A stretch of 38,374 bases of DNA from an uncultured Rhodobacterales bacterium. GTDB taxonomy: Bacteria > Pseudomonadota > Alphaproteobacteria > Rhodobacterales > Rhodobacteraceae. Each line of letters opens with the position of its first letter. The stretch's first letter is position 1. Of this stretch, positions 5,290-25,200 are shown in pieces. The stretch lies in contig CAIMWI010000078.1 in assembly GCA_903845215.1 (NCBI GenBank), positions 1 to 38,374 on the forward strand, in the 5' to 3' direction. A program made the translations under genes and the position numbers. The notes under the pieces are model-generated. The model searched no databases. It worked only from the letters and a program-made list of their open reading frames with translations, and was not told where the DNA came from.

Positions 5290-8055
5290 ATGTCTAAGAA
5301 AATGCTCATCGACGCCACCCACGCAGAGGAGACTCGCGTGGTTGTGGTGGACGGCAACAAAGTTGAAGAATTCGACTTTGAAACCCTGAACAAGCGCCAG
5401 CTTGCAGGAAATATCTATTTGGCCAAAGTCACGCGGGTCGAACCCTCGCTGCAGGCGGCCTTTATAGATTACGGCGGCAATCGGCACGGCTTTCTGGCCT
5501 TTGCCGAAATTCACCCCGATTACTATCAAATCCCGGTCGCCGACCGCAAAGCCCTGCTGGAAGAAGAGCGCGCCTTTGCCCGCGCAGAGGATGACGAAGA
5601 CAACCGGCGCTCCTCTCGCCCAGCACCGCGGCCTCGCCCGCAACCCGCCCGCGTGGAAAGCCGCGATGCGGTGGAAACGGCGCAGGCCTCCTCCAGCTAT
5701 GGCAGCATGGATGTGGTGGATCTGTCCGAAGACACCGAAGCAGACGATCGCCAAGTGGTCGCAGATCAAATGATCGAAGCCCCCGCCGAACCCGTCGCCG
5801 TTGCGGCACCGGCTCACGATCATGACCACAGCGACGCGCATGATCACGACCACGCCCATGATCACAGCCACGACGATGCCGCACCCGCCGAAGGTGACGC
5901 CCCCTTCCGCGCCATCGACCATGCCTCTGACACCGACGACGAGATCGAGTCGATTGCGGAAGAGGATGTGCAAGAAGAAATCAGCGCCCCGCGCAAACCC
6001 CGCGCGCGCCGTTACAAGATCCAAGAAGTCGTCAAAGTGCGCCAGATCATGCTGGTGCAGGTCGTCAAAGAAGAGCGTGGCAATAAGGGCGCTGCCCTGA
6101 CCACCTATCTGTCACTTGCTGGTCGCTATTGCGTTTTGATGCCCAACACGGCGCGTGGTGGTGGCATTTCTCGCAAGATTACCGTGGCGACAGATCGCAA
6201 GAAGCTGAAAGAAATCGCCTCGGAACTGGAAGTGCCAGAAGGTGCTGGCCTGATCATCCGCACAGCGGGTGCCAAGCGCACCAAGCCCGAAATCAACCGC
6301 GATTACGAATATCTGATGCGACTGTGGGAACAGATCCGCGAGTTGACGCTGAAATCCATGGCGCCCGCCGCCATCTACGAAGAAGGTGATCTGATCAAAC
6401 GTTCGATCCGCGATCTTTACAGCCGCGAGATTGACGAAATTTTGGTCGAAGGCGAAGCAGGTTACCGCACCGCCAAAGACTTTATGAAGATGATCATGCC
6501 CTCGCATGCCAAGGTCGTGCAGCGCCATAATGACCAGATGCCGCTGTTTGCGCGCTATCAGGTTGAAAGCTATTTGGCCGGCATGTTCAACCCGACTGTG
6601 CAGTTGAAATCAGGCGGCTATATCGTGATCGGCGTGACCGAGGCACTGGTGGCCATCGACGTCAACTCTGGTCGCGCCACCAAAGAAGGCTCGATCGAAG
6701 ACACCGCGCTGAAAACCAACCTTGAAGCCGCCGAAGAGATTGCCCGCCAGTTGCGCCTGCGCGACTTGGCCGGATTGATCGTGATCGACTTCATCGACAT
6801 GGAAGAACGCCGCAACAATCTGGCCGTTGAAAAGCGCATCAAGGACAAGTTGAAAACCGACCGCGCGCGCATTCAGATCGGCAGGATTTCCGGCTTTGGC
6901 CTGTTGGAAATGTCGCGTCAACGCCTGCGGCCGGGGATGCTGGAATCCACCACCCAGCCTTGCGCGCATTGCCATGGCACGGGTCTGATCCGCTCGGACG
7001 ACAGCCTTGGCCTGCAAGTGCTGCGCGCTTTGGAAGACGAAGGCGCGCGCAAGCGGTCTAAAGAGGTGCTTTTGAAAGCGCCGATTGGCATTGTGAACTT
7101 CCTGTTCAACCAAAAGCGCGAACATCTGGCCGTGATCGAGGCCCGCTATGGCATGGCCGTGCGGATTGAAGCCGATCCGCAGATGATCAGCCCCGATTTC
7201 CTGTTGGAAAAATTCAAGACCGCGACACGGGTCGTCCCCGACGCCGCCGCCGTAATCTCGGGCAATGCCAGCTTGATGGGCGCGCCGGTGCTGGAAGAGG
7301 AAGACGACGATATCATCGAAGAGGATATTGACGACGAAACCGATGACGCCGAGGATGACAGCGAAAGCGAAAGCACGTCCAACGGCGGCAGCAAGTCGGC
7401 CGATCCGGCAAACCCTGGCAAGAAAAAGCGCCGCCGTCGTCGCAAGAAGAAGGGCGGCGGTGGGGCCGGGCAGACCGAGCAGGGTGACGCCGTGGCCAGC
7501 GAAGGCGCAGAGGCTGCACCCTCGCAAGAGGCAGGCATCAGCCCTGACACTGCAGAGCCAGCGCCGACCGAGGCAGGCGAAGCCCCAGTCGCCAAGAAAG
7601 CCCCGCGCCGCACGCGTGGTCGGTCTTCGAAAGCGGTGGAAGCTGTGGCAGAGACTGATGCAGACACAGCCGCCGAGACCGTGGCCGAGCCTGTGGCGGA
7701 TGTGCCTGCCGAAGGTGCCGCAGAACCCGCCCCCGCCAAACGCCCCGCATCGCGGCGCAAAGCGGCAACCGAAGCGACAGGCGATGGTGCAGACCAAGCG
7801 CCCAAGCCCGCCCGCAGCCGCTCTGCGCGCAGCAAAGCCGCAGCTGAACCTGTGGCAGACGTCGTTGAAGCGCCAGCACAGGCCGAAGCTGCGGCCTTCC
7901 CCGCTGATCCAGCTGCCAGCGAGCCGCCCGTAGCTGAGGTGCAGCCCGTCTTGCGCGCTGATCCTGAAGATGTGGTAGCACCCGCCGCGCCTGCGCCAGA
8001 ACCTGAAGACCCGAACAAACCCAAGCGCAAAGGCTGGTGGTCGCTGGGCCGCTGA
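5290..8055 (+). CDS. rne: Ribonuclease E
   Basis: This 921-residue endoribonuclease is the core of the RNA degradosome. The start is MSKKMLIDATHAEETRV, the conserved N-terminus. The S1 domain begins at about 38 (AGNIYLAKVTRVEPSLQAAFIDYGG), is interrupted by an acidic insertion of about 150 residues (81-240) that includes a His/Asp-rich run near 176-195, and resumes at KIQEVVKVRQIML. The catalytic Asp457 (AIDVNSG) and Asp500 (VIDFIDM) correspond to E. coli Asp303 and Asp346. The Zn-link is Cys558-A-H-Cys561. The C-terminal half is disordered: an acidic patch, a KKKRRRRRKKK RNA-binding patch, Ala/Pro-rich repeats, and a final KRKGWWSLGR. In Caulobacter a terminal GWW motif docks PNPase, so the same role is likely. 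The ribosome-binding site is weak. Confidence 0.96.
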   Translation: MSKKMLIDATHAEETRVVVVDGNKVEEFDFETLNKRQLAGNIYLAKVTRVEPSLQAAFIDYGGNRHGFLAFAEIHPDYYQIPVADRKALLEEERAFARAEDDEDNRRSSRPAPRPRPQPARVESRDAVETAQASSSYGSMDVVDLSEDTEADDRQVVADQMIEAPAEPVAVAAPAHDHDHSDAHDHDHAHDHSHDDAAPAEGDAPFRAIDHASDTDDEIESIAEEDVQEEISAPRKPRARRYKIQEVVKVRQIMLVQVVKEERGNKGAALTTYLSLAGRYCVLMPNTARGGGISRKITVATDRKKLKEIASELEVPEGAGLIIRTAGAKRTKPEINRDYEYLMRLWEQIRELTLKSMAPAAIYEEGDLIKRSIRDLYSREIDEILVEGEAGYRTAKDFMKMIMPSHAKVVQRHNDQMPLFARYQVESYLAGMFNPTVQLKSGGYIVIGVTEALVAIDVNSGRATKEGSIEDTALKTNLEAAEEIARQLRLRDLAGLIVIDFIDMEERRNNLAVEKRIKDKLKTDRARIQIGRISGFGLLEMSRQRLRPGMLESTTQPCAHCHGTGLIRSDDSLGLQVLRALEDEGARKRSKEVLLKAPIGIVNFLFNQKREHLAVIEARYGMAVRIEADPQMISPDFLLEKFKTATRVVPDAAAVISGNASLMGAPVLEEEDDDIIEEDIDDETDDAEDDSESESTSNGGSKSADPANPGKKKRRRRRKKKGGGGAGQTEQGDAVASEGAEAAPSQEAGISPDTAEPAPTEAGEAPVAKKAPRRTRGRSSKAVEAVAETDADTAAETVAEPVADVPAEGAAEPAPAKRPASRRKAATEATGDGADQAPKPARSRSARSKAAAEPVADVVEAPAQAEAAAFPADPAASEPPVAEVQPVLRADPEDVVAPAAPAPEPEDPNKPKRKGWWSLGR

Positions 8056-8076
8056 TCTGACGCGCTAGAATTCAAA

Positions 8077-8105
8077 CGCCCGACAGTCCCCTGTCGGGCG
8101 TTTTT
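8077..8105 (+). terminator. Rho-independent terminator of rne
   Basis: A perfect 10-bp stem, CGCCCGACAG (8077-8086) with CTGTCGGGCG (8091-8100), loop TCCC, followed by TTTTT (8101-8105). The three A's before the stem give a short T-run on the other strand, so it may also end the convergent tusA transcript, whose stop codon overlaps the T-tract. Confidence 0.93.
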
Positions 8106-8331
8106 ATGCGCCAGCGCGGATCAGGTGAAGGGTCACGGGGCCGTCATCCTTGGCCCCAAGATAGCTATGCCCCGCTTCAAGACAAAAATGCGGCAGGTCG
8201 ATGCGGGCCATCGCATCAGTGGCACGCAGGCACAAAACTTGCCCCACAGCCATCGCCATCAACCGCTTACGCGCTTTCAGCACAGGCAGCGGGCACAAAA
8301 GCCCCTCGCAATCCAAAACCTCATCCCACAT
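8104..8331 (-). CDS. tusA: TusA-family sulfurtransferase
   Basis: This 75-residue protein has the TusA/SirA fold. LDCEGLLCPLPVLKARKRL (6-24) contains the CPxP motif, with Cys13 as the persulfide-carrying residue. TusA-family proteins pass sulfane sulfur, for example to tRNA 2-thiolation, molybdenum-cofactor or sulfur-oxidation pathways. The start at 8331 is chosen for the MWDEVLDCEGL family start, with AAGGGGG ahead of it; the open frame continues far upstream without resemblance to anything. It is divergent from ccdA, 104 bases apart, and convergent with rne at the shared terminator. Length is typical. Confidence 0.88.
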   Translation of the reverse strand: MWDEVLDCEGLLCPLPVLKARKRLMAMAVGQVLCLRATDAMARIDLPHFCLEAGHSYLGAKDDGPVTLHLIRAGA

Positions 8332-8435
8332 CGGCGCCCCCTTTGGCCTTCCATACAAAGCCAGCCCTGCAAAGGCCACAAAAAGGTGAAGATTGCGCAG
8401 GTGACGGCGTAGGGCAAACAGGGTAAGCCTGTCGC

Positions 8436-14909: not shown

Positions 14910-15821
14910 TTAGCCGGCAAAAGGCTGGCCCAAAGAGGCGACCGTGTTCAACCGCATCCTGCGGCGGTTGGAAGAGATCACGGCCAGCATCACAATAGTC
15001 ACCGCATAGGGCAAAGATGCCAAAAGCTGGGATGGCAGCGCCACGCCTGCCGCTTGGGCGATCAAGCCGCCTAAGGACAGCGCACCAAACAGCAGCGCGC
15101 CAAAGACGATTCGCCCCGCAGCCCAAGTGCCAAAGACCACCAGCGCCACCGCAATCCACCCGCGCCCCGCAATCATCCCATCAGCCCATAGCGGGGTGTA
15201 GATGGTAGAGGCATAGGCCCCCGCCATCCCCGCCATCGCCCCGCCAAAGGCCACTGCCGCCAACCGGATGCGCAACACGCGAAAGCCGATCGCGCGGGCT
15301 GCATGCGGGTTTTCGCCCACAGCGCGGATGATCAAGCCCAGTTTGGAATGGTTCAGAACGGCCCAGATCACAACCGCCAAGCCAAAGGTCAGATAAACCA
15401 CCACATCCTGCTCAAAAAGTGGCCCGATCACCGGCAGATCGGCCAAGACAGGAATAGCCAACTTGCCCGGCGCATCCAGCGTTTGGCTTTCCAATGGCTT
15501 GCCGATCAGTGACGATAAGCCCAGCCCCAGCACCCCAATCGCCAACCCTGCGGCGACCTGATTGGCCATAAAGCCCAAGGCCAACGTGGCAAATACCAAC
15601 GATAGGGCAATGCCCGCCACAGACGCTGCTGCAAAGCCCAAGACGTGGCTATGGGTGGTATAGGCCACCACAAACCCCACCGCAGCCCCCAAGGCCATCA
15701 TGCCTTCAAGGCCAAGGTTTAAGACACCGGCGCGTTCGGCGATAAGCTCTCCAAGGGCTGCCAGCAGCAAAGGCGTGGCGGCGGCGAGCGTTCCGGCAAG
15801 GATAAAGGCCAAAATCGTCAT
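14910..15821 (-). CDS. ABC transporter permease, BMP/nucleoside type (NupQ/YufQ-like)
   Basis: This 303-residue permease has about eight or more hydrophobic segments and belongs to the BPD_transp_2 family used by purine nucleoside and simple sugar importers. The conserved stretch AERAGVLNLGLEGMMALGA (28-46) is typical of the second permease of such systems, as is RAVGENPHAARAIGFRV in the cytoplasmic coupling region. The ATG at 15821 overlaps the stop of the upstream permease by four bases; the frame is open to 16151, but that part lies over the upstream gene. It is the last gene of the operon. Confidence 0.9.
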   Translation of the reverse strand: MTILAFILAGTLAAATPLLLAALGELIAERAGVLNLGLEGMMALGAAVGFVVAYTTHSHVLGFAAASVAGIALSLVFATLALGFMANQVAAGLAIGVLGLGLSSLIGKPLESQTLDAPGKLAIPVLADLPVIGPLFEQDVVVYLTFGLAVVIWAVLNHSKLGLIIRAVGENPHAARAIGFRVLRIRLAAVAFGGAMAGMAGAYASTIYTPLWADGMIAGRGWIAVALVVFGTWAAGRIVFGALLFGALSLGGLIAQAAGVALPSQLLASLPYAVTIVMLAVISSNRRRMRLNTVASLGQPFAG

Positions 15822-16888
15822 GCGCGGCCCGCCCAGTTCAAGATCACCCGATGGCGAATGAATGTCAGGCTGCCAAGGTAAAACACCAAAAGCAGCCCTT
15901 GAAAGACAAACACCGCCGCCACCGGCAAATCGGCCGATACCATGGCATTGTCCCCGCCAATAAACAGCGCCGCCATCAAGAACGCCGAAACCACGATGCC
16001 CAGTGGGTTCAAGCCGCCCAAATAGGCCACAATGATCGCCGAATACCCATACCCCGTCGACACCGACCGCTGCAATTGGCCCAAGGGGCCTGCCACCTCG
16101 CAAGCGCCGGCCAGCCCTGCCATCAACCCACCCAAAAGCAGGCTGACCCAAACCGCCCGCGCTTCGGTAAAGCCTGCATAGCGTGCCGCGCGGGGGGCAA
16201 GGCCGCCGACCAGCAACTGGTAGCCCGAAAACCGGTGGCGCATCATCACATAGGCCAAGGCACTGACCAACAGCGCCGCCAGAACAGAGATATTCACCCG
16301 CGTGCCCGACAGCAAAATCGGCAACAGGGCCGCATCGGGGAAGATCACGCTTTGGGGAAAGTTAAAGCCATGCGGATCTTTCCATGGGCCCAACAGCAGA
16401 TAGTTCAGCACTTGGGTGGCAATCAGCGTCAGCATCAAGGTGACAAGGATTTCATTGGCGTTAAAGCGCACCCGCAACCCTGCCGCAATCGCCGCCCAAG
16501 CCGCCCCGCCCACAGCGCCCAGCGCGATCATGGCAGGCAGCATCAGGGGCGAGGAGCCTTCCGGAAAATACACCGGCAGCGCACTGGCGCACAGCGCGCC
16601 GATGATCAACTGCCCCTCGGCCCCGATGTTGAACACATTGGCGCGAAAGCCAATCGCCAGACCTTGGGCGATCAGCATCAAAGGCCCCATCTTCAGCAAA
16701 ACTTCCGAGATGTTGTACCAGCCGACAAAGGGTTCTAGCAGCAGCGAATACAGCGCCTGCCCCGCTGGTTTGCCCAAAGCGGCAAACAGGATCAGGCTGG
16801 TCAGCATCGTCAGCCCCAAGGCGATCAGCGGGGCTGCAAACAAAACCCGTCGCGACAGGGCAGCGCGGCGTTCGAACGTAATCTTCAT
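15818..16888 (-). CDS. ABC transporter permease, BMP/nucleoside type (NupP/YufP-like)
   Basis: This 356-residue membrane protein is the first permease of the importer. It shows the family motif GLAIGFRANVFNIGAEGQL (76-94) and FNANEILVTLMLTLIATQVLNY. Together with the other permease, the double ATPase and the BMP binding protein it forms a complete nucleoside/purine-type importer. Both ends overlap neighbouring genes by four bases, so the operon is tightly coupled. Confidence 0.9.
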   Translation of the reverse strand: MKITFERRAALSRRVLFAAPLIALGLTMLTSLILFAALGKPAGQALYSLLLEPFVGWYNISEVLLKMGPLMLIAQGLAIGFRANVFNIGAEGQLIIGALCASALPVYFPEGSSPLMLPAMIALGAVGGAAWAAIAAGLRVRFNANEILVTLMLTLIATQVLNYLLLGPWKDPHGFNFPQSVIFPDAALLPILLSGTRVNISVLAALLVSALAYVMMRHRFSGYQLLVGGLAPRAARYAGFTEARAVWVSLLLGGLMAGLAGACEVAGPLGQLQRSVSTGYGYSAIIVAYLGGLNPLGIVVSAFLMAALFIGGDNAMVSADLPVAAVFVFQGLLLVFYLGSLTFIRHRVILNWAGRA

Positions 16889-18381
16889 GCCGCAGCCCCG
16901 ATCATATAGGTGCCGATCTGTTCAACCGAAGTGGCCGCAACATCTACCGAGGGCGACAAGTGCCCCTTGTGCAGCACTTGCAATCGGTCGCAGATTTCAA
17001 ACAACTCGTCGATCTCTTCCGAGATCACCACAATCGCCGCCCCCGCATTGCGCATAGCCACCAGCCGTTGGCGAATGTCAGCGGCAGCACCAATATCCAC
17101 GCCCCATGTGGGTTGGGCGACCAAAAGCACCTTTGGGTCTAGCATCATCTCGCGCCCCATGATGAACTTTTGCAAATTGCCCCCCGACAATGACCCCGCC
17201 TCGGCTTGCGGGCCAGATGTGCGCACATCAAAGCGGGCGATGCAGTCGGCGGTAAAGGCGCGCTCAAGCTTGCGGTTGATAAAGCCGTTTTTCACCAACC
17301 CACGCCCATGGGCGGTCAGCAGCGCATTGTCGGCCAAAGACATATCCGGCACAGCGCCGCGACCCAGCCTGTCTTCGGGCACAAAGGCCAGCCCGCGATG
17401 GCGCCGCGCCGCAGCGCCCAGATCGCCCACGGGCTGGCCCATGAATGTCACGGCCTTAGCGTTTGATGTCAAAGCAATCTCACCCGAAATCAGCGCTGCC
17501 AATTCTTGCTGGCCATTGCCCGAAATCCCCGCAATGCCCAGAATTTCGCCCCCCCGAACGGCCAAAGACACATCCTTCAAAGACACACCGAACGGATCGT
17601 CATTGGCAAAGTTTAGGTTGGAAAGGGCCAGCCGCTCTTCTCCCAGCCCGTGCGGGGTCGGGTGTACGGGCGGCGGCATCGGGCGGCCGATCATCAAGGT
17701 CGCCAGATCATGCGCCGTGCCTTGGCGCGGGTCCAGCCGTGCCATCACACGGCCTTGGCGCAGGATCGTGGCGGTGTCGCACAATTCGCGGATTTCTTCC
17801 AGCTTGTGGCTGATGAACAAAATCGCCATGCCCTTGGCCCGCAGCGCGCGCAGCGTATCAAACAGCAGCGCCACCGATTGCGGCGGCAGAACTGAGGTTG
17901 GTTCATCCAAGATCAACAACGCAGGGTTCAGCAGCAGGCAGCGAATGATCTCGACCCTTTGGCGTTCCCCCACCGACAGGGCATGTACCATCGCTTGCGG
18001 GTCGACCGACAGGCCAAAGGCAGCACCCAAGTCGCGAATGCGCGTGGCCAGTTCGCCCTTTGATCCCGGCACGATCAGCGCCATGTTTTGCACGACACTC
18101 AGCGTTTCAAACAGCGAGAAGTGCTGAAACACCATTCCGATCCCCAGCCGCCGCGCATCAGACGGGCTGGACAGGGTAACCGCTTGGCCCTGCCAAAGCA
18201 CCTGCCCCTCATCGGGGCGTTCCACCCCATAGATCAGTTTCATCAGCGTGGATTTGCCAGCGCCGTTTTCGCCCAAGATGGCATGGATAGACCCGGCATC
18301 GACCGAAAGATCGATGCCAGCATTGGCCTGCACCCCGCCGTAGCGTTTTGATACGCCAGAAAGCTGCAACAGCGGGGCCAT
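16885..18381 (-). CDS. ABC transporter double ATPase, BMP/nucleoside type (NupO/YufO-like)
   Basis: This 498-residue protein contains two nucleotide-binding domains. The first is canonical: Walker A GENGAGKST (37-45), signature LSVGERQRVE, Walker B LLILDEPTSVL, H-loop FISHKLEE. The second has the degenerate Walker A GISGNGQQEL and Walker B VLLVAQPTWGVD but an intact signature LSGGNLQKF, the usual asymmetry in this subfamily. It powers the two permeases encoded downstream. It starts 9 bases after the binding-protein stop. Confidence 0.93.
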   Translation of the reverse strand: MAPLLQLSGVSKRYGGVQANAGIDLSVDAGSIHAILGENGAGKSTLMKLIYGVERPDEGQVLWQGQAVTLSSPSDARRLGIGMVFQHFSLFETLSVVQNMALIVPGSKGELATRIRDLGAAFGLSVDPQAMVHALSVGERQRVEIIRCLLLNPALLILDEPTSVLPPQSVALLFDTLRALRAKGMAILFISHKLEEIRELCDTATILRQGRVMARLDPRQGTAHDLATLMIGRPMPPPVHPTPHGLGEERLALSNLNFANDDPFGVSLKDVSLAVRGGEILGIAGISGNGQQELAALISGEIALTSNAKAVTFMGQPVGDLGAAARRHRGLAFVPEDRLGRGAVPDMSLADNALLTAHGRGLVKNGFINRKLERAFTADCIARFDVRTSGPQAEAGSLSGGNLQKFIMGREMMLDPKVLLVAQPTWGVDIGAAADIRQRLVAMRNAGAAIVVISEEIDELFEICDRLQVLHKGHLSPSVDVAATSVEQIGTYMIGAAA

Positions 18382-18390
18382 AGGAACCTC

Positions 18391-19479
18391 TTACTTCGGC
18401 AGCGGCGTGGTGACGCCCTTCACATGCCAATCCATCGACAAGATCATATCGTCGCCCAAGGTGACGCCCGCTGCAACCTGCTCTGCGCCGTCTTGGTTGG
18501 TGATCGGGCCGGTGAAGGGCGAGAAGGCGCCCGATTCAATGGCTGCTTCCGTCTCAATGATCTTGGCCACGATGTCGGCGGGGATATCGGGGTTCCAATC
18601 GGTCACAAAGACGCATTTCTCGGCCATGCTTAGCCAAGCCGAGGCGCCTGCAAAGGTGCCCGCCAGATGCGCCTCAACCGATTGCAAGAAGTAGGGGGCC
18701 CAATCGGTGCCAACCACGCCCAGATACTTCGTTGGCGCATAGGTCTTCATCGAGGAGTTGAGGTTGAAGGCGTAAACCCCCGCTTCTTCCGCCGTCTGGA
18801 TCACCGAAGGCGTGTCTTGTGCGTTCGAGAAGATCACATCCACACCTTGCGAAATCAGCGCCTTGGCCGCTTGCTGTTCAGAGGCCGGATCGAACCACGA
18901 ATTCACCCAAACCACCGAGACTTCAATCGCAGGGTCCACCGATTGCGCGCCCAAGGTGAACGCATTGATCGAGGTGATCAGTTCGGGAATGGCAAAAGCC
19001 CCGACACAGCCCAGTTTCTTGGATTTGGTCAGCGCAGCGGCCGCCATGCCCATCAGGTAGGTGCCCTGATAATACCGCGCCCCAAAGGGCGAGAAGTTCG
19101 GCGCGGTCTTATAGCCCGAAGCGTGCAAGATCGACATATCGGGCCGCGACTTGGCCAGTTTTAGCCCGCCTTCCATATAGCCAAAAGAGCCCAAGATCAG
19201 GAACGTGGTACCATCGGCTGCGGTCTTGTTCATGATGCGGTCGGCATCGGGGCCTTCGGCGATGTTTTCGAGCAGGGTCACTTTGACCTTGTCGCCATAT
19301 TTCGCCTCTAGCGCCTTGGTGCCCAGTTCCAGCGTATGCGACCAACCCACATCGGCGGCGGGTGACGGCACGATCAGCGCCACGTTCAGCACATCATCGG
19401 CAAAGGCCGGCACGGGCAGCGCAAGGGCGGTGCTGGCGGCGAGGGTGGATTTTAGAAAGGTGCGGCGGTTTAAGGACAT
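18391..19479 (-). CDS. BMP-family (PnrA-like) substrate-binding protein
   Basis: This 362-residue protein starts MSLNRRTFLKSTLAAS with a twin-arginine-like signal and a likely cleavage after AFA (about residue 27), so it is periplasmic. The BMP domain shows NVALIVPSPAADVGWSHTLELG, FLILGSFGYMEG, ARYYQGTYLMGMAAAALTKSKKLGCVGA and DVIFSNAQDTPSVIQTAEEAG. BMP-family proteins bind purine nucleosides or related compounds; the exact ligand here is inferred from the deaminase and oxygenase genes in the same operon. GGAG lies six bases before the ATG. It is separated by 25 bases from the amidohydrolase. Confidence 0.92.
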   Translation of the reverse strand: MSLNRRTFLKSTLAASTALALPVPAFADDVLNVALIVPSPAADVGWSHTLELGTKALEAKYGDKVKVTLLENIAEGPDADRIMNKTAADGTTFLILGSFGYMEGGLKLAKSRPDMSILHASGYKTAPNFSPFGARYYQGTYLMGMAAAALTKSKKLGCVGAFAIPELITSINAFTLGAQSVDPAIEVSVVWVNSWFDPASEQQAAKALISQGVDVIFSNAQDTPSVIQTAEEAGVYAFNLNSSMKTYAPTKYLGVVGTDWAPYFLQSVEAHLAGTFAGASAWLSMAEKCVFVTDWNPDIPADIVAKIIETEAAIESGAFSPFTGPITNQDGAEQVAAGVTLGDDMILSMDWHVKGVTTPLPK

Positions 19480-19504
19480 GGTCTTCTCCGTTCGGGGTTA
19501 AGGG

Positions 19505-20875
19505 TTAGGTCAGGGTGCGGTTCAGGGCCTCTTCGGCTTGGGCAAACAACTGCCCTTCATCAAGGCCGGGGAAAGCGCCGTTTTGCCAAAGGATGCGGCC
19601 ATTGGCCATGGTCAGGTCGGTGGGCGCACCCACGCCCACTTTGGCAATCAGGCTGACGGGGTCGTGGCGTGTGCCAACGTAATCCAGCTTGCGGGTGTCG
19701 ATGGCGAAAAGATCAGCGGCCTTGCCCACCTCTAAACTGCCCAAATCGCGCCGCCCCAGCAGGTCAGCCCCGCCTTGGGTGGCATAGTGCAGGAATTGTG
19801 CAGGCTCTGGCACAGGATGTTTGCGCCCCGAGGCCACCAAGCATTGCAGCATATAGGCCGAATGTATGCAGTGCATCAGGTTGGAATTGTCATTCGACGC
19901 CGCCCCATCCACCCCCAGCCCGATACGCAGCCCCAAGGCCTGCATGGCGGGAATGTCGGTGACTTCTGCCCCCACCAGATAAACCGGTTCGGGGCAATGC
20001 GACACGCCTGTGTTGGTCGCGGCCAGTTGCGCCAATTCGCAATGGGTCAACTCCCACGCATGGGCATAAAACGTATCGGGGCCGCAAAAGCCCATCTCTT
20101 CCAGATAATCGACTGTGCGCTTTCCGGTGCGGGCCTGCATCACGGGGCTTTCGCCTTCGCCCACATGGGAATGTAAGAACACGCCCTTATCGCGCGCCAA
20201 GCGCACCGATTCGACAAAGGTGTCGCGGTAGCAATTCACCGGTTGGCAGGGCGATATGACCACCTGCCGCAGGCTAAAGTCGCGCGCATCGTGGTACTGG
20301 TCGATCAGCCTTTCGCAATCGGCCAGAAAGCCGTCAGTGGTTTCCAGCATCTCGTCGGGGATGGTAGAGCCTTCGCTTTTGGGCAGCGTATTGCCGCCCC
20401 GCCCCGCATGAAACCGCAGCCCGAACAGATCGGCCGCTTCAAACTGGCGGTCGACAATGCGCGATCCGGCATGGCGGGGGAAGTTATACTGATGGTCAAA
20501 GGCCGTGGTGCAGCCGTGTTTGATCAGCTCGGCCATGGCCACGACGGAAGAGTGGTAAAAGCATTCTTCCGTCAAGCGGGCAAAGATCGGATAGATCCGG
20601 TCCAGCCATTGCAGCACGGAAAGCGTGGTCCAATCCAGATCGGCGCGGTTGCGCACGAAGGTTTGGAAGAAATGGTGATGGGTGTTGATCAGACCCGGAT
20701 AAACAAACCACCCACTGGCGTCGATCACTTGGGTGCCTGCTGGCAGCGGGCCTGCCGACAGGTTCGGCCCAATGGCCGCAATCGCAGGCCCTTGGATCAA
20801 GATATCCTGATCCCGCAGCACGGGCAAATGGGCTGAACGCACTATTGCCGCACAAGATTTCAGCAAATATCCCAT
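19505..20875 (-). CDS. Amidohydrolase, 8-oxoguanine deaminase type
   Basis: This 456-residue protein of the AtzA/TrzN amidohydrolase family probably deaminates a purine-type base. The metal site is visible: His66 and His68 in NTHHHFF, His235/237 in FLHSHVGE, His272 in FYAHAWELTHCE and Asp323 in GVDGAASND. The INTHHHFFQTFVRN segment resembles characterised 8-oxoguanine and isoxanthopterin deaminases, in contrast to classical guanine deaminase. The ATG at 20875 shares one base with the stop of the GST-like gene; the frame continues upstream to 20968 within that gene. It is cotranscribed with a purine-type importer and a split Rieske oxygenase. Confidence 0.85.
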   Translation of the reverse strand: MGYLLKSCAAIVRSAHLPVLRDQDILIQGPAIAAIGPNLSAGPLPAGTQVIDASGWFVYPGLINTHHHFFQTFVRNRADLDWTTLSVLQWLDRIYPIFARLTEECFYHSSVVAMAELIKHGCTTAFDHQYNFPRHAGSRIVDRQFEAADLFGLRFHAGRGGNTLPKSEGSTIPDEMLETTDGFLADCERLIDQYHDARDFSLRQVVISPCQPVNCYRDTFVESVRLARDKGVFLHSHVGEGESPVMQARTGKRTVDYLEEMGFCGPDTFYAHAWELTHCELAQLAATNTGVSHCPEPVYLVGAEVTDIPAMQALGLRIGLGVDGAASNDNSNLMHCIHSAYMLQCLVASGRKHPVPEPAQFLHYATQGGADLLGRRDLGSLEVGKAADLFAIDTRKLDYVGTRHDPVSLIAKVGVGAPTDLTMANGRILWQNGAFPGLDEGQLFAQAEEALNRTLT

Positions 20876-21525
20876 CAGGCCACCTCGGGCGCAGGGCGCA
20901 ATTCGTGCAGGCGGTGGATGCCGGGCATTTCGACAAAGCGGTCTAGCGCGCGGATGGCGCGGGTCCACAGGCGAACGGAAGGATAGGCATCTAGGCTAAC
21001 ACCGCCATCTTGGGACAGCGCCACATTGGGAAAACAGGCGATATCAGCGATCGAGGGGGCATCCCCCACCAACCAAACCCCGCCCGCAAAGCGCCGCTCG
21101 CTTAGGGCTGCTTCCAATTCGCGCAGCGCCGCATGGCCTTGGGCACGCCATGCGTCAATATCGCCCTCATACAGCAACATATCATGCAGACGCGCCATGC
21201 CCAAGCTTGCCGCCAAGCGGCCCGAAAAGGCCAGCCAGTGTTGCACTTGGGCGGCGGATTTGGGGTCGCAAGGCCCCAGCCAGTCACGCCCCGAAAGCTG
21301 TGCAAGATAAACCAGCATCGCGGTGCTTTCGGTCAGGATCAAATCGCCATCCACCAGCACCGGCAGCGTGCCCGCCGGATTAAGCTGCGCAAATGCCGCC
21401 GATTTATGCGCCCGACCAGGGTGAAAATCCACCGCCTCATGCTCTAGCTTAACACACAGCAAAGCCGCCATCAGGCGGATTTTATAGCAACTGGCACTCA
21501 GCACATAATCATAAAGCCGGATCAT
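20875..21525 (-). CDS. Glutathione S-transferase-like protein (possible NdmE-type scaffold)
   Basis: This 216-residue protein has the two-domain GST fold. The thioredoxin-like N-terminal domain includes YVLSASCYKIRLMAALL (7-23), the cis-proline strand GTLPVLVDGD (52-61) and the TEST glutathione-gamma-Glu motif; the all-helical C-terminal domain has PSIADIACFPNVA. It overlaps the catalytic oxygenase subunit by four bases. In the Pseudomonas caffeine pathway the GST-like NdmE is required to assemble the Rieske-less N7-demethylase NdmC with NdmD, so a structural rather than detoxifying role is plausible here. An isomerase or glutathione-dependent enzyme remains possible. Confidence 0.85.
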   Translation of the reverse strand: MIRLYDYVLSASCYKIRLMAALLCVKLEHEAVDFHPGRAHKSAAFAQLNPAGTLPVLVDGDLILTESTAMLVYLAQLSGRDWLGPCDPKSAAQVQHWLAFSGRLAASLGMARLHDMLLYEGDIDAWRAQGHAALRELEAALSERRFAGGVWLVGDAPSIADIACFPNVALSQDGGVSLDAYPSVRLWTRAIRALDRFVEMPGIHRLHELRPAPEVA

Positions 21526-22364
21526 GCCGCCACCATCTGCGCACCGTAAGTTAGACCTCGTTTCTTCAGCCAGCGCCGATAAGCGATCGAGGTCAGATCG
21601 GCTTGGGTCGGAATCTCCATCCCCGGATCCAGCGGCAACAGGCGCGGTATCTGGTTTTCAAGAATGGATCGGTCTTGCAGGAAGATCATCTGCTGAAAGG
21701 CGATCAGTTCGGCTTGCGGCGTGGCGTCATCATACAGCGCCATCCACGGCCAGACATCGCACAGCTCTTCGCTGAGTGGCTGCACAAAAATGCCGATCAC
21801 ATCCCAAGCATCAGGCCGCGCGGGGCAGGTTTTGTACAGCACCGCCGCCGTGGGGGCGGGCACGCGGTACATGTATTGCGTCACAATCCCGCCTTCCGCC
21901 GACTTGGCGGCTTGAGGCTGGTAGAATGTGACTTTGGTGGCCCAGACCTCGTCGCTGTCTTCGCGGATCTGCACCTCGTAGCGGTTCACCTCGGTATGGG
22001 GTTCAGCGCCCAAGACATCGGTGTGGACAAAGGGAAAATGGGCGATGTCTAGAAAGTTTTCTACCGCGCGCAAGGGAGAGCATTTGACCCGCACCACGCC
22101 CACATCTACCAAGCGGCGGCCTGTCTCTAGGGCTTCGGGAATGGGAAACAGCGGATGCGCTGGCGTACCGGGGCAAGCCCAGACATGGCCGAAAGCCTCG
22201 GTCACATGCAAGGGGCCTGCCTGCCCCGTCACGACGATGACACCATCTTGCACATGAACCGTGATCGGCTGGCCCAACAGTTGCGTCACCCGCCGCTGGC
22301 CTGCACAGATTTGCGCGGCCATGGCCACCGGATACCATTCGTTCATAACCTCTGGCGCGATCAT
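21522..22364 (-). CDS. Rieske-type oxygenase catalytic subunit lacking the Rieske domain (NdmC-like)
   Basis: This 280-residue protein keeps the start of a Rieske oxygenase (NEWYPVAMAAQI, LLGQPITVHVQDGVIVV) but passes directly to FGHVWACPGTPAHPLFPIPE (59-78) without any Cys-x-His...Cys-x2-His cluster motif. The catalytic domain has the mononuclear iron site Asp106-x2-His109-x4-His114 (ENFLDIAHFPFVHTD), a candidate third ligand Asp231 (FLQDRSILENQ), and Glu102. Length matches NdmC, the N7-demethylase of 7-methylxanthine, which also lacks a Rieske domain and borrows electrons from a Rieske domain in NdmD. The ATG overlaps the stop of the Rieske gene by four bases. Substrate is inferred: probably an N-methylated or otherwise modified purine. 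Confidence 0.85.
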   Translation of the reverse strand: MIAPEVMNEWYPVAMAAQICAGQRRVTQLLGQPITVHVQDGVIVVTGQAGPLHVTEAFGHVWACPGTPAHPLFPIPEALETGRRLVDVGVVRVKCSPLRAVENFLDIAHFPFVHTDVLGAEPHTEVNRYEVQIREDSDEVWATKVTFYQPQAAKSAEGGIVTQYMYRVPAPTAAVLYKTCPARPDAWDVIGIFVQPLSEELCDVWPWMALYDDATPQAELIAFQQMIFLQDRSILENQIPRLLPLDPGMEIPTQADLTSIAYRRWLKKRGLTYGAQMVAA

Positions 22365-22987
22365 GCGGCCCCCTTTCGTTCAGCGCGGCGGCGCAAGTCT
22401 TCCAGCCAGCGCGAGGCGGCGATGCGATCCGCCCCCACCGCGCACAAGGCGTGCAGCGTCAGGCCCGAAGCGCCGTGTTGCACCAAAAGGCAGACCTCAC
22501 ACGCCTGCCCGCCGATCTGCACCAACCCGCGCAGCACATCGTCACCCGACAAAGCCGGTTCCGCCAAACGTACAGCCACGACATCGCAGGTCAGGCTGAT
22601 GCTGCGCAAAGGCTGCAATCCGCGCAACGCCACAGGCGCCCCCACCGTCTCGGCAGGGGCAACCCAGATCACGCCGTCTTGTTCGACACAGGCAAAGGCC
22701 GCAACGCGGATCGTCGCAGGCGGGGTCAGTGCGGGATGGGCGGGGATGTGTTTGCACCCGCCGTCAGCACCGTAAACCCAACCATGATAGATGCAGGCCA
22801 AAGTCTCGCCGCGCACAAAGCCGTGCGACAGGCGCATGCCGCGGTGCGGGCACCGGTCGTTCCATGCCTGCAAGCGCCCGCTGGCACTGCGCCAAACAGC
22901 CAGATCGTGCCCTTGCCAATGACCAGCCATGGCCACCGCCTTGGGCAAATCTTGCGACAGGCCTGTGGCCGTCCAACGCTGTGTCAT
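22361..22987 (-). CDS. Stand-alone Rieske [2Fe-2S] protein with unknown C-terminal domain
   Basis: This 208-residue protein has an N-terminal Rieske domain (about 5-112): Cys46-P-His48 (NDRCPHRGMRLSHG) and Cys65-I-Y-His68 (ACIYHGW) bind the cluster. Residues 120-208 form a second segment I do not recognise. No iron-binding catalytic motif is present, so it cannot be an oxygenase by itself. It is the natural electron donor for the Rieske-less subunit encoded directly downstream (four-base overlap), equivalent to the extra Rieske domain of NdmD. The start at 22987 has GAGGTGG six bases upstream and excludes a non-conserved extension to 23095. Confidence 0.88.
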   Translation of the reverse strand: MTQRWTATGLSQDLPKAVAMAGHWQGHDLAVWRSASGRLQAWNDRCPHRGMRLSHGFVRGETLACIYHGWVYGADGGCKHIPAHPALTPPATIRVAAFACVEQDGVIWVAPAETVGAPVALRGLQPLRSISLTCDVVAVRLAEPALSGDDVLRGLVQIGGQACEVCLLVQHGASGLTLHALCAVGADRIAASRWLEDLRRRAERKGAA

Positions 22988-23581: not shown

Positions 23582-24397
23582 ATGACCCGCCCCATCATCG
23601 GTGCCGCGCTGACCAATGCCGAATTGGCAACCTATCAAAACTGGATCCTTGAAAAAGACCGCGACCTAGAACTGCAAAGCTTTGTCAACGCCGCCGTGCT
23701 TGACGATGACTGGACGCCTTTGGCCGCGCAAGTCAAACACCTGCTGGCAGGTTACAAGGGCCGCATGGGCATTCATGGCCCTTTCTGGGGCTTTACCATC
23801 GACACGCCAGACCCATTGGTGCGCGCCGTGGTGCAAAAGCGCTTGGGGCAGGGTTTGGACGTTTGCGCCGCCATTGGTGGAACGCATATGGTCGTCCATT
23901 CTCCCTTCACCACATGGGATTACAACAACCTTGACGGCTATGCCGGCGCCCGTGACAAAATGCTGACCTCTGTGCATGACGTGATGGCCCCCATCGTCAA
24001 GCGCGCCGAAACTTTGGGCGTAACGCTGGTTTTGGAAAACATCGAAGACATCAACCCCACCGACCGTAAAGAGTTGTGCCAAAGCTTTGGCAGCGCCGCC
24101 TTGCAACTTTCGGTCGACACCGGCCACGCGCATTATGCCCACGGATCAACCGGCGCACCGCCCGTGGATTACTTTGTCCGCTCTGCCGGTGACATGCTGG
24201 CCCATGTGCACTTGCAAGACGCCGATGGTTATGCCGATCGGCATTGGCAGATTGGCCAAGGAAACATCCTGTGGCCTTCGGTTTTTGCAGCCATTGCCGC
24301 TCTACCCGTGCAACCGCGCTTGATTTTGGAACTGGCCGATAAGGCCGGCATTCCGGCCTCGATGGAGTATTTGGAAGCACAGGGGTTGGGACAATGA
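23582..24397 (+). CDS. Sugar phosphate isomerase/epimerase family protein (AP_endonuc_2 TIM barrel)
   Basis: This 271-residue protein has the xylose-isomerase-like TIM barrel. Metal-ligand strands are recognisable: MGIHGPFWGF, HMVVHSPF (His), LVLENIED (Glu), LQLSVDTGHAHY (Asp/His), MLAHVHLQDADG (His) and LILELADK (Glu). The substrate is unknown; relatives act on sugars or sugar phosphates. AGGAGA precedes the ATG. The stop overlaps the start of the metallophosphoesterase by four bases, and both precede the ugp-type importer, so a role in breakdown of the imported compound is plausible. Confidence 0.82.
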   Translation: MTRPIIGAALTNAELATYQNWILEKDRDLELQSFVNAAVLDDDWTPLAAQVKHLLAGYKGRMGIHGPFWGFTIDTPDPLVRAVVQKRLGQGLDVCAAIGGTHMVVHSPFTTWDYNNLDGYAGARDKMLTSVHDVMAPIVKRAETLGVTLVLENIEDINPTDRKELCQSFGSAALQLSVDTGHAHYAHGSTGAPPVDYFVRSAGDMLAHVHLQDADGYADRHWQIGQGNILWPSVFAAIAALPVQPRLILELADKAGIPASMEYLEAQGLGQ

Positions 24398-25200
24398 GTG
24401 ATACTTTAAAATTTGTGGTGATGAGCGATCTGCACTTGGTGCGCGAGGGGGAAACCTCGATGACGCTGGACACATCCGCGCGGCTAGAGGCGGCCGTGGC
24501 CTGCCTGAATGACCGCTATGCAGACGCCGATTTTGTTATCATCGCGGGCGATCTGGCGGATGAAGGCGAAGCAGAGGCCTACGAACGCCTGAAAGCCATC
24601 ACGGCGGGCATCACCCTTCCCACCTATATCACCTTGGGCAACCATGATGACCGCCCGACCTATCTGAACGTCTTTGGCGCACATCACGCCGACGAGACGG
24701 GCAAGATCAACCATGTGATCGACGCCAAAGGTTACCGCATTATCGTCTTGGATTCGTCGGAACCCGGTCGGGTCGATGGGGTCTTAACAGCCCATCAGAT
24801 GACATGGCTGACCGCACGCTTGGCCGAGGCCGCCGACCGCCCCGTGATCGTGGTCTTGCACCACAACGCCAACGCGCTGCACATCGCAGCCGATACGATC
24901 AAGATCCATGACAATGCGCCATTCATCGCGGCGCTGAAAACCCATGGCGATATCCGTCAGGTGATTGCAGGCCATGTCCATCTGACCTCAACCGCCATGT
25001 ATCACGGGCTGCCCTTTACCACGCTGGCGGGCGGGCATTACTCGGTCAGCTTCAACGCCGATCAACCCCAAACCCCGTTCAAAAGCCTGACCGGGCCGGG
25101 GCAGATGGCCGTGGTTCTGGGCACGTCCCATGCCACGACCGTGCTGTTTGAAGATTTCATCGATGGCAATGCCATGATCGGCCTGCACGATCCCGACTAA
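24394..25200 (+). CDS. Metallophosphoesterase (GpdQ / class III phosphodiesterase-like)
   Basis: This 268-residue calcineurin-like phosphoesterase has all the dinuclear metal motifs in order: MSDLHLV (10-16), IIAGDLADEG (about 49-58), TLGNHDDRP (about 79-87), VVLHHNAN and IAGHVHLTS. The spacing and length match the GpdQ/cAMP-phosphodiesterase group, which cleave glycerophosphodiesters and cyclic nucleotides. It is coupled to the isomerase-like gene and sits 180 bases upstream of ugpBAEC, where many bacteria instead carry UgpQ, so hydrolysis of glycerophosphodiesters to sn-glycerol 3-phosphate is the likely role. No signal peptide, so cytoplasmic. Confidence 0.85.
   Translation: MSDTLKFVVMSDLHLVREGETSMTLDTSARLEAAVACLNDRYADADFVIIAGDLADEGEAEAYERLKAITAGITLPTYITLGNHDDRPTYLNVFGAHHADETGKINHVIDAKGYRIIVLDSSEPGRVDGVLTAHQMTWLTARLAEAADRPVIVVLHHNANALHIAADTIKIHDNAPFIAALKTHGDIRQVIAGHVHLTSTAMYHGLPFTTLAGGHYSVSFNADQPQTPFKSLTGPGQMAVVLGTSHATTVLFEDFIDGNAMIGLHDPD

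Follow-up and report, generated by a model that had tools for sequence, protein, structure and literature searches.

An unfused three-protein variant of the NdmCDE oxygenase arrangement, encoded with a predicted NdmH-type amidohydrolase and a BMP-type importer

The 38,374-nucleotide stretch analyzed here (the window), contig CAIMWI010000078.1 of an uncultured Rhodobacterales bacterium, encodes a Rieske oxygenase whose cluster-binding and catalytic parts lie on separate proteins. The source assembly comprises 2.97 Mb in 88 contigs, of which the window is one, and is 93% complete; its closest named relatives are Rhodobacteraceae. An initial annotation of the window had described three overlapping genes, for a protein with only a Rieske domain, an oxygenase without one and a glutathione S-transferase (GST)-fold protein, and open reading frames (ORFs), Pfam matches and motif residues all bear this out. 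The conserved unit, however, is not these three genes but eight co-directional minus-strand genes (14910–22987), which add an amidohydrolase and the four components of an ATP-binding cassette (ABC) importer (Table 1). Within the window, start and stop overlap by 4 bases at the catalytic/Rieske and GST/catalytic junctions and by 1 base at the amidohydrolase/GST junction.

Table 1. Genes of the eight-gene operon in the window
Feature	Position	Strand	Evidence
Stand-alone Rieske [2Fe-2S] protein, 208 aa	22361–22987	-	Pfam PF00355, 70.9 bits
Catalytic oxygenase subunit, 280 aa	21522–22364	-	VanA_C PF19112, 73.7 bits; no Pfam Rieske match
GST-fold protein, NdmE-like, 216 aa	20875–21525	-	Pfam GST_N and GST_C
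Predicted NdmH-type amidohydrolase (N2,N2-dimethylguanine hydrolase type), 456 aa	19505–20875	-	13/13 poNdmH active-site residues
BMP-family substrate-binding protein, ABC importer	18391–19479	-	PF02608
ABC importer ATP-binding protein	16885–18381	-	PF00005, two stretches
ABC importer permease 1	15818–16888	-	NF047929, 148 bits, under the 400 cut-off
ABC importer permease 2	14910–15821	-	Relative present in 77/80 loci

A split catalytic subunit, a separate Rieske domain and a GST partner are already known from NdmCDE, the 7-methylxanthine N7-demethylase of Pseudomonas putida CBB5 (PMC4408171), and the window system shares all three: its catalytic subunit lacks a Rieske domain, the Rieske domain sits on another protein and the third protein is GST-like. 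It differs from NdmCDE in that the Rieske protein lacks a fused reductase, the block is without a reductase gene, and the operon includes a putative NdmH-type amidohydrolase and a BMP-type importer. According to a review, ndmCDE has homologs without a known function, chiefly in Sinorhizobium and Mesorhizobium, and a cluster of another Klebsiella strain is among the closest (PMC4408171). In all our comparisons, NdmCDE-type clusters of Klebsiella, Sinorhizobium and Mesorhizobium stand in for P. putida NdmC, NdmD and NdmE. These clusters (L112, L117, L115 and L111) carry the same three functions, with a BMP importer in the rhizobial ones and a guanine deaminase beside L115. Unlike the window, they have a fused NdmD of 585–588 amino acids, and in the rhizobial ones the importer and a GntR regulator are divergent.

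A scan of genome contigs for relatives of the catalytic protein returned 470 loci. The best 80 of these 470, its nearest relatives, were analyzed, so that counts describe the family rather than the whole group; 81-row counts are these 80 loci plus the window. Gene positions in the compared loci were taken from profile matches, longest-ORF calls being unreliable in high-GC loci. Co-occurrence in other genomes, proposed as a test in the initial annotation, is complete, with the Rieske, catalytic and GST genes each present in 80 of 80 loci. The BMP gene is present in 79, the amidohydrolase in 78, and the ATPase and each permease in 77, some contigs ending early. The operon is found across rhizobial and rhodobacterial genera. 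In a second, less selected sample of 295 genomes from the window's taxonomic family, searched at E < 1e-60 and sharing at least three contigs with the 80 loci (L161/L011, L162/L018 and L164/L026), the split catalytic protein occurs in 21 genomes, the window's own included. The 21 do not include genome G515, which has fragments of a catalytic protein (the best with E 6.9e-18 and 61% identity across 59 residues). Around the 21 catalytic genes the Rieske partner is stand-alone in 18 cases, reductase-fused in two (L151 and L176) and not found nearby in one (L177). The three-way partition into Rieske, catalytic and GST proteins is thus a real and widespread variant of the NdmCDE arrangement.

The Rieske protein carries the cluster ligands C46-x-H48 and C65-x2-H68 at the positions first annotated, each conserved in 81/81 sequences. 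The motif is present in all 80 Rieske proteins of the compared loci, which are usually 200–217 amino acids long. Structures were predicted as single chains with AlphaFold2 and compared by Foldseek, considering the 24 best rows. The Rieske model (pLDDT 94.9) matches GxtA best (TMq 0.78), and all 24 rows are GxtA or SxtT at TMq 0.69–0.78, with high root-mean-square deviations of 3.7–7.2. By arithmetic estimate, a 115-residue Rieske domain alone could yield a TMq of ∼0.55, against 0.78 for the 208 residues. Because the match exceeds that expectation, the last 90 residues may form a reduced oxygenase catalytic domain without iron ligands. The profile of the Rieske protein (∼211 positions) aligns with the NdmD-type proteins of L112 and L150 over positions 3–206 or 3–209, and over shorter N-terminal stretches with those of L111 (3–152), L115 (4–146) and L151 (5–122). 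By these alignments the Rieske protein is the counterpart of the N-terminal part of NdmD, and its C-terminal domain apparently belongs to the matched region.

The catalytic protein has the iron site D106-x2-H109-x4-H114 together with D231, each of the four residues being present in 81/81 sequences, whereas a Rieske motif is found neither in the window protein nor in any catalytic protein of the 80 loci. The D-x2-H-x4-H site and the missing Rieske motif had been recognized at the outset; D231 is added here. The full equipment of a Rieske non-heme iron oxygenase (CxH-x16-CxxH, D..H....H and a distal Asp) is complete only in the pair together (81/81), and in place of the usual alpha chain bearing both domains there are two genes in the window and in 80/80 loci. 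The catalytic model has a pLDDT of 77.4, with residues 110–124, 151–157 and 240–242 below 50, and matches GxtA and SxtT at TMq 0.76–0.82. Its first 50–60 residues look like a remnant Rieske lobe without the cluster-binding loops. Among solved structures, GxtA and SxtT (SxtDIOX) are the best relatives of each half, whether judged by sequence or by fold; unlike the window proteins they are single-chain, SxtT is listed as alpha3 (PMC12445004), and their structures bear saxitoxin-type ligands.

These features are consistent with a model in which one Rieske oxygenase is spread over two subunits, each lacking what the other retains. The Rieske protein would keep the [2Fe-2S] cluster and a reduced, iron-free catalytic fold, and the catalytic protein would keep the mononuclear iron and a cluster-free Rieske scaffold, with the NdmE-like GST-fold protein probably holding the two together; NdmCDE needs its GST partner for both solubility and activity. 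In known Rieske oxygenases the cluster of one subunit lies ∼12 Å from the catalytic site of its neighbor (PMC12445004), and two complementary subunits could therefore form the same pair. The absence from each protein of one half of the normal catalytic equipment might also be expected of decayed remnants of an ordinary Rieske oxygenase. We give that explanation almost no weight, as the cluster and iron residues are retained in 81/81 sequences, the 4-base overlap is kept at the Rieske–catalytic junction in 73/80 loci and at the catalytic–GST junction in 77/80, and the genes co-occur in 80/80.

Kinship of the catalytic subunit with NdmC, the other test proposed initially, is well supported. The window protein is 41–44% identical to four NdmC-like stand-ins (271–295 aligned columns). 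In a 54-row tree that did not include HpxD, all 37 split catalytic proteins fall on one side of a branch with support 100/98, apart from 17 full-length oxygenases. Together with the GST-fold protein, which is 43% identical to two NdmE-like stand-ins (206–207 columns), and the NdmD-like Rieske protein, this supports the likeness to NdmC-NdmD-NdmE that was drawn at first. Within the split clade, the window family (100/99) groups with five rows that have stand-alone Rieske partners (99/98); these come from four genomes (L113, L141, L142 and L143/L144). The tree program flagged rows L141, L142, L143 and L148 as long and unsurely placed. L148, a further stand-alone locus, lies outside the stand-alone group in both the catalytic and the Rieske trees, so by these sequences stand-alone partners are not strictly one clade. 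The closest full-length relatives of the split oxygenase (L146, L147, L157 and L099–L102) are 37–43% identical to it and have a BMP-family gene close by, and L146 and L157 have a guanine deaminase-like gene close by as well.

The initial annotation had described a Rieske carrier freed from the reductase. The first part of this holds, since the Rieske protein is stand-alone in 80/80 loci and the fusion to a flavin/NADH/plant-ferredoxin reductase that characterizes NdmD occurs in none; the direction of change is not settled by the trees. In the Rieske tree the stand-alone group has support of only 82/67. Rows in that tree include a full-length oxygenase (L150), NdmD cut by the locus end (L090 and L091), a plasmid copy whose reading frames look broken (L114), and, for L148, a Rieske protein in a long ORF without a reductase match, for which Pfam gives a Rieske domain only in the part scanned.

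We looked for a dedicated reductase within or beside the operon and rejected the idea, as the NdmD-reductase profile matches nothing in the 80 loci or in L161–L175 (15 loci, at least three of them shared with the 80). The window's genome encodes three NAD-binding (PF00175) proteins, one of which is 39% identical to the NdmD reductase. This protein, the sole NdmD-reductase match in the genome, sits in a locus with DmmA and a haem-dependent N-demethylase. A GR-type reductase (PF14759) and a [2Fe-2S] ferredoxin are also encoded and are candidate donors only. The simplest reading is an electron donor shared with other systems. A reductase encoded elsewhere would charge the stand-alone Rieske protein, from which electrons would cross the subunit interface to the iron.

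Several relatives vary this layout. In sister locus L141 a separate reductase lies beside the Rieske, catalytic and GST genes. In G386 a single Rieske–GST pair lies between two catalytic subunits, G508 (L173) has the same layout, and L112 has two catalytic subunits and one NdmD; on the basis of these three arrangements, a Rieske carrier may be shared by two or more catalytic subunits. The two catalytic subunits of L143, L144 (G386:C61) and L173 (G508:C22) stand near different amidohydrolases, one of which, in L144, exceeds the 8-oxoguanine deaminase cut-off (580.6 versus 532 bits), while one in L143 is only a distant match. L149 encodes, at 7107–8360, a 418-amino-acid protein with Rieske and plant-type ferredoxin domains that adjoins a split catalytic subunit and has no Pfam match (E up to 0.001) to flavin or NAD domains between the two. 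Related oxygenases thus occur in four layouts among the compared loci: one chain, split, split with a reductase on its own gene (a single case) and split with a fused reductase. These layouts are useful for tracing the origin of NdmD.

The gene adjoining the GST gene points to the chemistry of the pathway. NdmH is an N2,N2-dimethylguanine hydrolase for which 13 active-site residues have been named, with an example from Pleomorphomonas oryzae (poNdmH) (Drexler et al., 2026, PMC13054789). It converts N2,N2-dimethylguanine to xanthine and dimethylamine; homologs do so at ∼10^5–10^6 per M per s, and three homologs measured strongly prefer N2,N2-dimethylguanine over guanine (PMC13054789). Like NdmH, the window's amidohydrolase has all 13 poNdmH residues (CQNN; the catalytic Q, E, H and D; and the flanking W, W, Y, Y and P), which are invariant in 79/79 operon amidohydrolases, the window included. 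In P. oryzae DSM 16300 (L034) the operon amidohydrolase has 13/13 at the published residue numbers and is, to judge by this agreement, very likely the studied poNdmH itself; two other Pleomorphomonas species have the residues as well. Amidohydrolases of the other relatives examined have 4 to 8 of the 13. We therefore predict from these residues that the window's amidohydrolase is of the NdmH type. Assignment to 8-oxoguanine deaminase (PRK08203) was rejected, the match reaching 363 bits against a cut-off of 532, with NdmH residues at 13/13. In L145 (9084–11491), a full-length Rieske oxygenase lies directly upstream of an amidohydrolase that is related to that of the operon (256 bits) but lacks the NdmH signature, having 7/13 of these residues.

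The discoverers of NdmH describe its physiological context as under investigation (PMC13054789), and the terms Rieske, operon, ABC transporter and glutathione are absent from the main text of that paper. The operon supplies such a gene context and allows the substrate and the sequence of reactions to be predicted in testable form. The initial annotation had proposed methylguanines among its assay substrates, and the NdmH gene in the operon now gives that idea independent support.

The partner deaminase is not constant. Sister loci L113 and L115 pair a split oxygenase with a guanine deaminase (TIGR02967, over cut-off), and a guanine deaminase identified by profile and residues also lies beside the split oxygenase in L170, L173 and L174. 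In L113, L173 and L174 the Rieske–GST pair is on the opposite strand to the catalytic subunit and guanine deaminase, and in L113 importer genes lie between these two. The amidohydrolase thus varies with the state of N2 and the oxygenase does not, a pattern that points to a methyl group on the ring rather than on N2. This bears on the possibility that the oxygenase N-dealkylates N2 itself, in N2-methyl- or N2,N2-dimethylguanine, in parallel with NdmH on the same methyls. Both enzymes are encoded in one operon and may act on methylated guanine; however, NdmH homologs already remove the whole dimethylamine at the rates given above (PMC13054789), and the oxygenase is retained where guanine deaminase replaces NdmH. 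We consider N2 dealkylation distinctly unlikely.

The best solved relatives of the BMP protein are 3s99 (Basic membrane lipoprotein) and then 6pi5 (Atrazine periplasmic binding protein), and NdmH has been placed in the AtzB cluster (PMC13054789). Both facts would suit an operon that takes up and degrades hydroxy-triazines or some other xenobiotic. That reading is very improbable, as the operon amidohydrolases carry the CQNN of NdmH and not the SSII of AtzB (79/79), and the operon is widespread in rhizobial and rhodobacterial genera.

Considered together, the data somewhat favor a three-protein N-demethylase of ring-methylated guanine or xanthine that works with NdmH and the importer in one pathway. 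We infer its assembly, electron route, importer cargo, substrate and N7 position. The BMP-type importer would bring in a methylated purine base, and the NdmH-type amidohydrolase would remove the (di)methylated N2 amine. The oxygenase would then take a methyl group from a ring nitrogen to give xanthine, which could pass to xanthine dehydrogenase; the window's genome encodes XdhB (TIGR02965, 1181 bits versus a cut-off of 849.5). As NdmH alone yields xanthine, the oxygenase should serve another purpose, and kinship to the 7-methylxanthine demethylase NdmCDE makes N7 the first guess for the position.

The most specific substrate that would need both enzymes, proposed from chemistry, is N2,N2,7-trimethylguanine. 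This compound occurs as the cap base of small nuclear RNAs in eukaryotes. In such a route NdmH would convert it to 7-methylxanthine, which the three-piece oxygenase, charged by a housekeeping ferredoxin system and not by a reductase of its own, would N7-demethylate to xanthine. This particular route is a tentative suggestion, and in our judgment a doubtful one.

Xanthine is also the starting point of a different proposal, in which the oxygenase would hydroxylate xanthine or guanine at C8. Like HpxD, it would then act as a molybdenum-free bypass, turning the xanthine made by NdmH into urate. Proteins annotated as HpxD, the molybdenum cofactor-independent xanthine hydroxylase subunit, are recognizable relatives (31–32% identity over 78% of the query). 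They resemble the window enzyme as purine-acting oxygenases by annotation and differ from it in being annotated as hydroxylases. HpxD carries its Rieske and catalytic domains in one protein, whereas the window oxygenase is split. The product of NdmH (PMC13054789) and the protein over the 8-oxoguanine deaminase cut-off that adjoins one relative (L144) both fit such a hydroxylase. Nevertheless, all 17 full-length oxygenases of our tree, from which HpxD was absent, lie outside the split clade; the window's genome already has a molybdenum xanthine dehydrogenase; and the split clade includes a Klebsiella cluster of the kind placed near the N7-demethylase NdmCDE (PMC4408171). A C8-hydroxylase is therefore improbable.

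Several observations weigh against the N-demethylase pathway favored here. NdmH reaches xanthine without any oxygenase (PMC13054789), so the need for one is only deduced. The reductase profile is without a match throughout the 80 loci, and the conserved block contains no formaldehyde-handling gene. For the importer, the best NCBIfam models describe a putative vitamin B6 importer and all score under cut-off; for the BMP protein the score is 80 bits against 400. Among 12 genomes of the family sample whose catalytic protein is at least 64% identical to that of the window, the NdmH signature is nearby in 9 rather than in all; one of the others has a guanine deaminase-like protein, and two have no amidohydrolase in the fetched stretch, one of these being cut by the contig end. 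Confidence in the catalytic model is low around its iron site. The C-terminal domain of the Rieske protein, taken by itself, does not match oxygenases significantly in profile–profile comparison (E 0.2 and 0.09), leaving the Foldseek result as the one line of support for a shrunken catalytic fold.

A link to use of dimethylamine, the other product of NdmH, was likewise sought. Locus L155 of the window's genome (contig C9) combines a DmmA-family protein, an NdmD-like reductase and a haem-dependent oxidative N-demethylase, and is probably a dimethylamine-using locus. A match to the DmmA family, a dimethylamine monooxygenase subunit, occurs in 4 of the 12 genomes with a close catalytic protein versus 38/283 others, one of these falling below the family cut-off (one-sided Fisher p 0.07, rising to 0.19 when the index genome is omitted). 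Over all 21 genomes with a split catalytic protein the counts are 7/21 versus 35/274 (p 0.018, or 0.044 without the index genome). We count this co-occurrence against the pathway as well and rejected the link, the association being too weak to use.

Two elements are new as far as our searches of open-licence literature show: that the unfused form is conserved and widespread, and that it is linked to NdmH. Unfused homologs may already have been noted in the 2013 NdmCDE paper. Those searches gave nothing further of relevance on methylguanine demethylation, dimethylguanine catabolism, or stand-alone or split Rieske oxygenases; trimethylguanine was not among the terms. The operon suggests a so far unrecognized way of recycling methylated RNA bases and, if the trimethylguanine route is true, soil and aquatic alphaproteobacteria would reuse modified RNA bases through it. 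It also provides a natural Rieske oxygenase with cluster and active site on separate proteins, in which electron transfer from one to the other could be measured by mixing.

Scans of the window for promoters and terminators gave values close to those of shuffled sequences. The divergent neighbors at 23582–25200 encode a TIM-barrel protein and an SpdA-like phosphodiesterase, and adjoin the operon in one of the 80 loci (L003). At positions 1–138, cut by the window edge, lies the 3′ part of an alphaproteobacterial tmRNA (Rfam RF01849, 89.9 bits).

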